From Terriglobia bacterium (GTDB taxonomy: Bacteria; Acidobacteriota; Terriglobia; Bryobacterales; UBA6623): a stretch of DNA of 64,000 bases. The stretch covers positions 62,001 to 126,000 of the forward strand of contig VXRL01000059.1 in the NCBI GenBank assembly GCA_009838515.1, written 5' to 3'. The position numbers and the translations under genes are program-made. Below the pieces are notes generated by a model. The model saw nothing but the letters and a program-made list of their open reading frames with translations. It was not told where the DNA came from and searched no databases. Numbering within the stretch: position 1 is the first letter of the stretch; every line of letters begins with the position of its first letter. Of this stretch, positions 18,827 through 22,469 are shown in pieces.

Positions 18827-20041
18827 ATGCGGTCTCGGCGATCGTTTCTAACCATGCTTGGCGGCGCATCGCTCGCACCCCAGGTAGCGCTGCCCCAAAC
18901 CAAGGGAAAACTGAAGATCACGTCGGTCGAGGCGGTGCCGGTGCGTCTGTGGTCGCGCTCCTCCCAAGGACGCTTGCCAGAATTCAAGGGACCGTTCGAT
19001 CCGGCCCGTTGGCGCTACAGCGGACCGTATTCCCAGCTTGCCAGCGCGATCGTGGTCGTCATCAAGACCGACCAGGGCATCACCGGCTACGGCTTCGGCG
19101 CCGGCGGCGGGGCCGCCGCCGAGATCATCCACGGCCACCTCCGACACCTCTTGGTTGGCAGCGACCCGCTCAACGTCGAGTTGCTTTGGGATCAGATGTA
19201 CCACTCCGGTATCTATTACGGCCGGCGGGGTGTCTTCGTGATGGCATTGAGCGGAATCGACAACGCGCTCTGGGACATCGTGGGCAAGTACGCAGAGACA
19301 CCGGTCTACAAGCTCATCGGCGGCGCGACCCAAGAGAAGGTGCCTGGCTATATCACGAACTCCGATCCTAGCGTGGGCCTAGGTCTGGGCTTTGAGAACT
19401 TCAAGCTGGGGATTCCGGACGGGGTCTTGGACGGCGCCGCAGGCATGGACCGGATCGAAGCTAGGATCAAGCGCGCGCGCGACGCGATCGGGCCGGAGCG
19501 TACGTTGATGATCGACTGCGGCTGCCGCTGGAACGACATCGGCTACACGCTGGAAATGGCCCGCAGGCTGGAGCCGCTGGGCCTGTACTTCATCGAGGAG
19601 CCGCTCTCGCCCGACAACATTCTCGGCTACAAGCGGCTGGTCGACGAGATCGACAGCACGCTGATCGTCAGCGGCGAGCACGAGTACACGCAGTACGGCT
19701 ACCAGATGCTGCTGCACCATGGCGGCACCGAAATCCTCCAGCCGGACATCAGCTGGTGCGGCGGCCTCACCGCGCTGCGCAAGATCGCCGTCATGGGCGC
19801 CGAGCGTGGCCTGCCGATCATTCCGCATCGTGGCAGCAGCCTGTATGGCATGGCCATCGTCCTGACCGCGAATGCTCCGCTGGCGGAGAGCTTCGGCACC
19901 GGAGACGACGCGACAGAGCTGATGCTGGCGATGTCATCGCCATTTGAGGGTGGTTATTACTATGCGAAGGACAAGCCCGGGTTCGGCACAGAGCTCACAG
20001 ACAAGTTGGTCCACGACCACGCAGGCAGTAGCGCGCTCTAG
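18827..20041 (+). CDS. Exported mandelate racemase / muconate lactonizing-type enzyme (enolase superfamily)
   Basis: The 404-aa product opens with a twin-arginine-like signal (Arg-Ser-Arg-Arg-Ser-Phe-Leu-Thr-Met, then a hydrophobic stretch and Ala-Leu-Pro). The enolase-superfamily capping domain follows (Gly-Ile-Thr-Gly-Tyr-Gly-Phe-Gly; Ser-Gly-Ile-Asp-Asn-Ala-Leu-Trp-Asp) and then the barrel. Metal ligands: Asp in Leu-Met-Ile-Asp-Cys-Gly, Glu in Phe-Ile-Glu-Glu-Pro-Leu, Glu in Val-Ser-Gly-Glu-His-Glu-Tyr. The catalytic His is in Ile-Pro-His-Arg-Gly-Ser, as in L-rhamnonate dehydratases. A sugar-acid dehydratase role is likely; the exact substrate is not readable. The ATG at 18827 precedes the signal. 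The next gene, a DapA-type lyase, also has an export signal. Confidence 0.88.
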   Translation: MRSRRSFLTMLGGASLAPQVALPQTKGKLKITSVEAVPVRLWSRSSQGRLPEFKGPFDPARWRYSGPYSQLASAIVVVIKTDQGITGYGFGAGGGAAAEIIHGHLRHLLVGSDPLNVELLWDQMYHSGIYYGRRGVFVMALSGIDNALWDIVGKYAETPVYKLIGGATQEKVPGYITNSDPSVGLGLGFENFKLGIPDGVLDGAAGMDRIEARIKRARDAIGPERTLMIDCGCRWNDIGYTLEMARRLEPLGLYFIEEPLSPDNILGYKRLVDEIDSTLIVSGEHEYTQYGYQMLLHHGGTEILQPDISWCGGLTALRKIAVMGAERGLPIIPHRGSSLYGMAIVLTANAPLAESFGTGDDATELMLAMSSPFEGGYYYAKDKPGFGTELTDKLVHDHAGSSAL

Positions 20042-21026
20042 CCTCGCGGGCAGCCAGCCCGGCCTGTCGCGCCGCCAGTGGCTGGCAGTGCTCGCGCTCG
20101 CGCCCGGATTGCGAGCGCTGGCTGCGGAGCCGGATGAGTTTCGCGGCATCTACCCCATCGTGGCCACGCCTTACCGCGACGACGGCAAGGTTGACTTGCA
20201 GACCCTCGCGAAGGAGGTTCGCTTCCTAGATCGGGCGGGCGTCCACGGCATTGTCTGGCCTCAATTGGCGAGCGAGTATGCGTTGCTGACCTTCGAGGAG
20301 CGCATCGCGGGTGCCGAGGCGATCGTGGAGGCGTCCAAGGGACTGCGACCCAAGGTCGTGATCGGAGTGCAAGCCGCCGACACTGAGACCGCAGTGCGCT
20401 ACGCCGAGCACGCCAAGTCGATCAGTCCGGATGCCATGATCGCCCTGCCGCCGCGGAAGGGCCGCCAAACGGAATTCGACCTGGATGCCGTGGCCCGCTA
20501 TTACGATGCTGTCGCCGAAGCCGGCGGGCTGCCCATGTTCATGCAGGCCATCGGCAACATGAGCGCCGACTTCGTCGCGCGCATGGTGCGGGAAATCCCC
20601 AACCTATACTTCGTCAAGGACGAGGCCGGCCACACCCTCAGCCGCCTGACCGAGTTTGCCGAGATGAAAGGGCCGGATCGCCCGCGGGCCTTCACGGGCG
20701 GCCACGGCCGCACGCTGATCGAAGAGATGGCGCGCGGATCGGCGGGCACGATGCCTGCTGCATCTTGGGTAGACCTGTACGTCAAGGTCTGGGATCTGTG
20801 GCACGCAGGGCAGCGCAACGATGCAATGGAGATGTTTTCCAAGGCGTTGCTGCTGATCGCCAAGGCCAGCGCCCACGGCCTCCCCGCGCTGGCCTATGTG
20901 CTGCACCTGCGGGGAGTGTTCCCCAACTGGAAAGTGCGCACTACCAGCGCCCGCGAGTTGGACCGGCACGCTCGCGAGCAACTCGAAGCGACGCTGGAGT
21001 TCGTGCGGCCCCACCTGATTGCATGA
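19962..21026 (+). CDS. Dihydrodipicolinate synthase/KDG aldolase family lyase with export signal
   Basis: The DapA-type TIM barrel (about 300 aa) starts at Phe-Arg-Gly-Ile-Tyr-Pro-Ile-Val-Ala-Thr-Pro-Tyr. The Schiff-base Lys is in Tyr-Phe-Val-Lys-Asp-Glu-Ala-Gly-His, and a Phe-Thr-Gly-Gly-His-Gly-Arg motif follows. Before the barrel lies a Tat-like signal, Leu-Ser-Arg-Arg-Gln-Trp-Leu-Ala-Val-Leu-Ala. The ATG at 19962 would overlap the upstream gene by 80 bases and add ~34 unconserved residues; a CTG at 20064 sits exactly at the signal and may be the true start. The loop that usually has Gly-Thr-Thr-Gly-Glu reads Trp-Pro-Gln-Leu-Ala-Ser-Glu. It probably cleaves a 2-keto-3-deoxy acid made by the adjacent dehydratase (inference). 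Confidence 0.85.
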   Translation: MRRTSPGSAQSSQTSWSTTTQAVARSSLAGSQPGLSRRQWLAVLALAPGLRALAAEPDEFRGIYPIVATPYRDDGKVDLQTLAKEVRFLDRAGVHGIVWPQLASEYALLTFEERIAGAEAIVEASKGLRPKVVIGVQAADTETAVRYAEHAKSISPDAMIALPPRKGRQTEFDLDAVARYYDAVAEAGGLPMFMQAIGNMSADFVARMVREIPNLYFVKDEAGHTLSRLTEFAEMKGPDRPRAFTGGHGRTLIEEMARGSAGTMPAASWVDLYVKVWDLWHAGQRNDAMEMFSKALLLIAKASAHGLPALAYVLHLRGVFPNWKVRTTSARELDRHAREQLEATLEFVRPHLIA

Positions 21027-21244
21027 TGGCGCTGGGCAAGTTGCTGGTAGTCGCCGGTTTGGCGCTGCTGGCGCTCGGTGCGATGATTCTCCTCGCACCG
21101 AGGTTGGGCCTGCCAGCTCCGGGCAAGCTGCCGGGGGACGTTGTCTACCAGAGCCCGCGCTTCACCCTGTACTTCCCGTTCGCCACCTGCGTTGCCATCA
21201 GCGCCGTCCTCACCGCGCTGTTTTACTTCGTGGGACGTCGCTGA
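21023..21244 (+). CDS. DUF2905 small membrane protein
   Basis: This 73-aa protein has two transmembrane helices (about residues 5-25 and 45-68) joined by the conserved loop Gly-Lys-Leu-Pro-Gly-Asp-Val-Val, then Phe-Thr-Leu-Tyr-Phe-Pro-Phe-Ala-Thr, all typical of DUF2905. Its ATG overlaps the stop of the DapA-type gene by four bases (ATGA). The function of the family is not known. Confidence 0.85.
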   Translation: MMALGKLLVVAGLALLALGAMILLAPRLGLPAPGKLPGDVVYQSPRFTLYFPFATCVAISAVLTALFYFVGRR

Positions 21245-21314: not shown

Positions 21315-22469
21315 ATGCGCGCATTGGCAGTAGTGTTCGGCTTCTTGGCCACCGTCTTTTCCGTCCCCGCTCTTGCCGGGGGACCTTCCCCGGAGATTCC
21401 GTTCAAGAAGCGAGTGATCGATCTGGGCAGGAACGAGCCTTGCGCGGTGGCGGATCTCAACGGCGACGGCTATCTGGACATCGTCTCTGGCGAGAACTGG
21501 TTCCGCGGGCCGGAGTTCCAGCCCAAGAAGTTCCGCTCGTTCTATTTCTTCAACAACTACATCGACGACTTCTCCGACATGCCGTTCGATGTCGACAGGG
21601 ACGGCCACGTTGACGTGGTGAGCGTCTCTTGGGGGGAGCAAAAGATCGCGTGGTGGCGAAACCCAGGCCGCGCCATCGGCGAGTGGGTCGAGCAGCGCAT
21701 CCACGAAGGGCTCCCGGTCGAGTTCGCGTTGCTGGTGGACTTGGACGGCGATGGCGCGGCCCGGGAGGTGCTGCCGCAATTCGGGGGCAGGCCAGCCGAC
21801 AAGACCTCGTGGTTTGAGTCGACCGGGCCGGATGGCAAGTGGGTCGAGCACACGGTGAAGCTCGCCGCTGACGGGCACGGTATCGGGGCCGGCGACGTGA
21901 ACGGCGACGGGCGCATGGACATTCTCACGCCCAAGGGCTGGCTGGAAGGGCCCTCGGACCCGCGCAAGACGCCGTGGAAGATGCATGCCGAGTTCGAAGT
22001 CGAAGAGCACGCGGGCTTCCTGCACGTGCTGGACATCGATGGCGACGGCCTCAACGACATCATCGCGCCCCATGCCCACAGCTATGGCATCTACTGGCTC
22101 AAACAGGTTCGCGGCGACTCTGGCCAGCGTGTTTGGGAGCGGCAAGTGATCGACGATTCCTGGTCGCAGGCGCACGCCTCGACCATGGCCGACCTGACCG
22201 GCGACGGGCGTCCGGAACTAATCACGGGCAAGCGGTTCTTTGCGCACAACGGCCACGACAAGGGCGGGCGCGAGCCCCTCGGGCTGTATTGGTACGAGTA
22301 CGCGAACAACGGCAAGCAATGGGAATGGCTGCGCCATACGATCCACTACGGTGGCCGCGTGGGCACCGGCATGCAGATTCCGGTGGTCGACATCGACAAG
22401 GACGGCGACTTGGACATCGTCGTCGGCGGCAAGGGCGGCGTCTTCCTGTTCGAAAATCTCACACGCTGA
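21315..22469 (+). CDS. Exported VCBS/FG-GAP repeat protein (second copy)
   Basis: The product is 384 aa, with a signal peptide (residues 1-22, ending Ala-Leu-Ala-Gly) and several FG-GAP-type repeats with Asp-x-Asn/Asp-x-Asp-Gly calcium loops: Asp-Leu-Asn-Gly-Asp-Gly-Tyr-Leu-Asp, Asp-Val-Asp-Arg-Asp-Gly-His-Val-Asp, Asp-Leu-Asp-Gly-Asp-Gly-Ala, Asp-Val-Asn-Gly-Asp-Gly-Arg-Met-Asp, Asp-Ile-Asp-Gly-Asp-Gly-Leu-Asn-Asp, Asp-Ile-Asp-Lys-Asp-Gly-Asp-Leu-Asp. It is a beta-propeller paralogue of the gene at 4907-6097 and shares the ending style (Phe-Leu-Phe-Glu-Asn-Leu). Probably periplasmic or secreted. Proteins of this type are numerous in Acidobacteria and Planctomycetes; no enzymatic role is established. 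Confidence 0.88.
   Translation: MRALAVVFGFLATVFSVPALAGGPSPEIPFKKRVIDLGRNEPCAVADLNGDGYLDIVSGENWFRGPEFQPKKFRSFYFFNNYIDDFSDMPFDVDRDGHVDVVSVSWGEQKIAWWRNPGRAIGEWVEQRIHEGLPVEFALLVDLDGDGAAREVLPQFGGRPADKTSWFESTGPDGKWVEHTVKLAADGHGIGAGDVNGDGRMDILTPKGWLEGPSDPRKTPWKMHAEFEVEEHAGFLHVLDIDGDGLNDIIAPHAHSYGIYWLKQVRGDSGQRVWERQVIDDSWSQAHASTMADLTGDGRPELITGKRFFAHNGHDKGGREPLGLYWYEYANNGKQWEWLRHTIHYGGRVGTGMQIPVVDIDKDGDLDIVVGGKGGVFLFENLTR

Follow-up and report, generated by a model that had tools for sequence, protein, structure and literature searches.

A predicted Tat-exported pair of sugar-acid enzymes in a Terriglobia bacterium joins a rhamnonate-dehydratase-like protein to a sister family of KdaD

Main

We analysed a stretch of 64,000 nucleotides (the window) from a Terriglobia bacterium whose genome assembly comprises 5.84 Mb and is 98.9% complete. 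The window carries two tandem genes for sugar-acid enzymes whose families are usually cytosolic, both with predicted twin-arginine (Tat) export, as a reading of the sequence alone had proposed; the source genome encodes the Tat translocase, with TatC and two TatA/B genes. We see an even prospect that the pair is a co-transcribed, Tat-exported module whose enzymes would perform one dehydration after the other, without NAD(P), outside the inner membrane. The sequence-only reading had assigned aldol cleavage to the second step, and this part was not supported: residue pattern, tree and structure indicate a dehydratase relative. Co-transcription, export, activity, substrate and the order of steps are inferred.

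Results

The gene pair and its boundaries

Both genes, their order and their plus-strand orientation agreed with the earlier description, with profile matches to MR_MLE in gene 1 (N domain, E 4.9e-17; C domain, E 3.4e-40) and to DHDPS in gene 2 (E 5.3e-21). Named relatives with 91–94% identity over gene 2 come from MAGs labelled Bryobacterales or Terriglobia (Acidobacteriota). The features are as follows.

18827..20041, plus strand: gene 1, Tat-tagged enolase-superfamily protein (MR subgroup), L-rhamnonate-dehydratase-like, 404 aa
18827..18898, plus strand: predicted twin-arginine signal of gene 1, MRSRRSFLTMLGGASLAPQVALPQ
19962..21026, plus strand: gene 2, Tat-tagged DHDPS-fold protein of a KdaD-related family, 354 aa, start inferred (ATG 19962)
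20067..20126, plus strand: core of the predicted twin-arginine signal of gene 2, SRRQWLAVLALAPGLRALAA
20544..20546, plus strand: codon for Gln195 of gene 2, where aldolases have their tyrosine
20616..20624, plus strand: codons for Lys219 (Schiff base), Asp220 and Glu221 of gene 2, a K-x-E pattern as in KdaD
21023..21244, plus strand: DUF2905 small membrane protein, 4-base overlap with the gene 2 stop
21315..22469, plus strand: exported protein with FG-GAP repeats, probably part of the operon

The open frame of gene 2 begins with a TTG at 19944 and ends at 21026. The plausible start is the ATG at 19962, which would give an 80-base overlap with gene 1. It is preceded by GAGGGTGG and is the sole conserved ATG upstream of the gene 2 signal in the six closest genomes, most of which have no ATG closer to the RR motif. 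This ATG sits within gene 1 in a different frame, and its conservation may be partly due to the coding constraint on gene 1. Other congeners have ATGs close to the gene 1 stop, and in other genera an ATG lies immediately 5′ of the gene 2 RR. A start at a GTG within the signal was rejected, because this codon is missing from several sister genomes. The overlap also suggested a frameshift fusion of the two genes, which we rejected because a separate gene 2 start codon is present in other genera.

The start of the DUF2905 gene overlaps the gene 2 stop by four bases; it is therefore probably on the same transcript. An FG-GAP gene is found 3′ of the pair in at least one other genus, too (G014, L184). 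A TcdB midN Pfam match on the FG-GAP protein was weak and below the cut-off, and was dismissed as a repeat artefact. No transporter or regulator gene was found beside the gene 1–gene 2 pair.

Twin-arginine signals are conserved

Each protein has an N-terminal RR followed by a moderately hydrophobic stretch, the pattern expected of a Tat substrate. Gene 1 begins with MRSRRSFLTMLGGASLA... and the RR signal of gene 2 reads ...GLSRRQWLAVLALAPGLRALAA. Orthologues of gene 1 with as little as about 50% identity retain the RR and the hydrophobic stretch, and for both proteins the RR signals persist amid drifting flanking sequence, in congeners as well as in other genera. Nearly all of the 74 related loci have a Tat-like signal, and the exceptions are mostly truncated, frameshifted or sequence-cut artefacts. 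Two family members appear frameshifted or truncated (L223:9001-9528 and L226:738-1555).

When a crude RR-plus-hydrophobic rule, some misses of which stem from where the sequences were cut, was applied to the related loci, 62 out of 70 DHDPS-type genes were positive compared with 96 out of 667 other genes. The frequency of RR signals in DHDPS-type genes is thus above chance. Several of the eight misses result from how the start window was set, and another belongs to a separate paralogue that is cytosolic. A lipobox-like cysteine follows the signal in a few gene 2 relatives (L165, L166 and L225). With the RR conserved despite drift and Tat machinery encoded, the Tat-like signals noted earlier on both proteins were corroborated by sequence comparison, and both enzymes are predicted to be exported via Tat. 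Translation starting downstream of the signals would have counted against the earlier reading, but gene 2 has no suitable conserved start 3′ of its signal.

Predicted export of the DHDPS-fold partner is unusual in this genome

We asked how unusual such export is in this genome. Among the 39 enolase-superfamily proteins above the Pfam cut-off, 24 (about 60%), gene 1 included, have a Tat-like N-terminus when counted by eye; export of that family is therefore normal here. One of the enolase-superfamily proteins (C83:11579) is by appearance a Tat lipoprotein. Among the DHDPS-family proteins of the genome, only gene 2 and its paralogue C45:138005 are Tat-like (2 of 11), and these two belong to one family. 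In Bryobacterales and some relatives, the Tat tag of this family is almost universal. Thus, the earlier view that a periplasmic location would be uncommon is weakened for the enolase superfamily, the export of which is ordinary here; what stands out is the exported DHDPS-fold family. In the accessible parts of the open-access literature, we found no account of Acidobacteria exporting enolase-superfamily or DapA-type proteins by Tat.

The same genome encodes a natural cytosolic counterpart of the exported pair. This operon on contig C62 (L133:4685-10145) comprises a D-galactonate-type MFS importer, a GntR/FCD regulator, a KdaD-type protein and an MR protein, the latter two without signals. A Tat-tagged MR protein precedes the operon.

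Gene 1 resembles L-rhamnonate dehydratase

Gene 1 falls into the MR subgroup of the enolase superfamily: it has both MR_MLE domains, the three metal ligands and the catalytic residues of the barrel. The conserved residues are D230, E257, E284, H285, D307, H334 and E354, matching positions that in this family serve as metal ligands or in catalysis. The metal-ligand and His/Asp/Glu catalytic set is kept in 20 orthologues. By profile (E 5.6e-72), sequence and predicted structure (pLDDT 86.3), the closest match of gene 1 is L-rhamnonate dehydratase (RhmD; PDB 2OZ3, 2P0I, 2I5Q and 3D46), with which it has the fold, the metal ligands and the catalytic His/Asp/Glu set in common. It differs from RhmD in its Tat signal, in an identity of about 30% and in scoring below the NCBIfam L-rhamnonate dehydratase equivalog cut-off (242.8 versus 393 bits), and we therefore call it only L-rhamnonate-dehydratase-like.

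Gene 2 belongs to a sister family of KdaD

The TIM barrel and the Schiff-base Lys219 place gene 2 in the DHDPS/NAL class I aldolase superfamily. The catalytic tyrosine and GXXGE motif of DHDPS/NAL aldolases proper are absent: Gln195 replaces the tyrosine, and QLASE replaces GTTGE. The claim that catalytic residues are present in both enzymes is thus upheld for gene 1, the set of which is intact, and only in part for gene 2, which keeps the lysine. Across 58 relatives of gene 2 (32–94% identity), Gln195, Lys219 and Glu221 are invariant.

These residues recall KdaD, the L-2-keto-3-deoxyarabonate (L-KDA) dehydratase of Azospirillum brasilense (PDB 3FKK and 7C0C-E), which shares with gene 2 the Schiff-base lysine, Gln for Tyr, Glu two positions after the lysine and the loss of GTTGE. 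In KdaD, the tyrosine became Gln143, Lys171 forms the Schiff base and aldol cleavage was lost; Glu173 is a catalytic base that other family members lack (PMC9795676). Another study likewise treats KdaD as the clade whose conserved residues diverge furthest within the superfamily (PMC13398020). Gene 2 has Gln for the tyrosine and the counterpart of Glu173. The second KdaD base, Glu200, is not kept; the aligned position holds His248, and position 248 is His in 46 of the 58 relatives.

KdaD is also the best profile match of gene 2 (E 1.1e-31), at an identity of about 24%, and the nearest sequences are the L-KDA dehydratase entries 7C0C and 3FKK. For the predicted structure, KdaD ranked best in a Foldseek comparison and also by Z-score (37.6 versus 36.2 for NanA chains, a small margin), with NanA and DapA scores close behind. 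In the tree, the Tat family forms a separate clade (support 100/99) beside KdaD and two Tat-less paralogues from this genome (joint support 99/98). KdaD is thus the nearest neighbour of gene 2 in both fold and tree. Because residue pattern, tree and modelled structure all point there, gene 2 looks like a KdaD-related dehydratase relative, not an aldolase. It differs from KdaD in its Tat signal, its own W-P-Q-L-A-S-E motif and its separate clade. Since His248 aligns with Glu200, gene 2 by sequence represents a sister family of KdaD and not KdaD itself, and its reaction may be different from that of KdaD.

The tandem is retained in several genera

In 18 of the 74 related loci, a gene 1 orthologue (at least 48% identity) directly precedes the gene 2 homologue, and the tandem is retained throughout the genus as well as in several others. 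Most gene 2 relatives are not beside gene 1 homologues; pairing is therefore not obligatory. An enoyl-CoA hydratase homologue takes the place of gene 1 immediately 5′ of the gene 2 relative at about nine loci, among them L168:8254-8991 and L176:8175-8909. Genes for PQQ-dependent dehydrogenases, enzymes that work outside the inner membrane, adjoin gene 2 relatives at L189:8393-10387 and L194:2129-3784, the latter followed by a cytochrome-like gene. One contig titled Acidimicrobiia (L182) carries a typical Bryobacterales-like member of the gene 2 family (49% identity) and is probably misbinned.

Discussion

In the route that we propose as the simplest reading, genes 1 and 2 would be co-transcribed as a small module, and both products would fold in the cytoplasm before Tat export. 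Outside the inner membrane, the Mg-dependent gene 1 enzyme would dehydrate an aldonate to a 2-keto-3-deoxy acid. The gene 2 enzyme would then form a Schiff base with this acid via Lys219, and a second water would be lost. The resulting 2-keto acid would carry another carbonyl group and, in the case of a pentonate, would be 2,5-dioxopentanoate; for an L-pentonate, the expected chain is aldonate, 2-keto-3-deoxypentonate and 2,5-dioxopentanoate. The product might be taken up or oxidized further. Enolase-superfamily dehydratases require Mg, and class I Schiff-base enzymes are cofactor-free, as would suit a compartment that lacks NAD(P). As neither dehydration would require NAD(P), the route could operate outside the cytoplasm. 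The signal-free operon on C62 and the PQQ dehydrogenases next to gene 2 relatives count in favour of this proposal. Against it stand the identity of only about 24% to KdaD, the narrow structural lead over aldolases, His248 at the position of Glu200, the lack of a neighbouring transporter or regulator and the many gene 2 relatives located apart from gene 1 homologues.

Three other explanations bear on separate parts of this proposal. If gene 2 were a periplasmic aldolase that splits a 2-keto-3-deoxy acid into pyruvate plus an aldehyde, as first suggested, its DHDPS/NAL fold and Schiff-base lysine would be accounted for, the characterized members of the family are mostly aldolases, and the NanA and DapA structural scores follow just behind KdaD. 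We nevertheless consider this unlikely, given Gln in place of the tyrosine in 58 of 58 relatives, the invariant Glu two residues after the lysine, the lost GTTGE motif and a tree that places gene 2 with KdaD. Retention of both enzymes in the cytosol, with RR segments that do not function as signals, would agree with the unusually long n-region of gene 2 (about 35 residues if translation starts at ATG 19962). However, signal character is retained despite sequence drift, nine of the 11 DHDPS paralogues in the genome have no signal, start codons in other genera lie immediately 5′ of the RR and some relatives have added a lipobox, all of which makes a cytosolic location very improbable.

It is also possible, at a rather low probability, that both enzymes are exported for other roles. 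They might not form a chain, or might not act on free aldonates (but on, for example, uronic or keto-sugar derivatives from polysaccharides), and gene 2 might catalyse an unrelated Schiff-base reaction. The many family members that have other neighbours, such as the enoyl-CoA hydratase homologue, in place of an adjoining gene 1 homologue speak for this, as do His248 in the place of KdaD Glu200 and the many enolase-superfamily paralogues that this genome is predicted to export. The conservation of the tandem, within the genus and in several others, argues against it.

A similar succession is reported in Pseudomonas, in which L-lyxonate is said to be degraded by an enolase-superfamily dehydratase followed by a 2-keto-3-deoxy-L-lyxonate dehydratase. 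That pathway has the two dehydrations in the order proposed here and an identical first enzyme class; unlike the pair, it is cytosolic and continues with an NAD(P)-linked dehydrogenase. In SAR202, expanded enolase-superfamily paralogues have been proposed to serve non-phosphorylative sugar-acid use (PMC10444878). Their number recalls the many paralogues of the present genome; the parts of that paper available to us do not mention Tat export or a periplasmic location, unlike what is predicted here.

On a broader scale, we tentatively raise a more doubtful proposal, namely that Bryobacterales and relatives have a non-phosphorylative, NAD(P)-independent route outside the inner membrane, in which PQQ-type oxidation of sugars to aldonates would be followed by two dehydrations through exported enzymes, one from the enolase superfamily and the other from the Tat-tagged sister family of KdaD, in parallel to cytosolic versions of both. 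If the exported pair works as proposed, part of sugar-acid breakdown would be extracytoplasmic in widespread, mostly uncultured bacteria. A large branch of a well-studied enzyme superfamily would gain a function, and the names ‘dihydrodipicolinate synthase’ and ‘aldolase’ that automatic annotation gives to such genes would be corrected.
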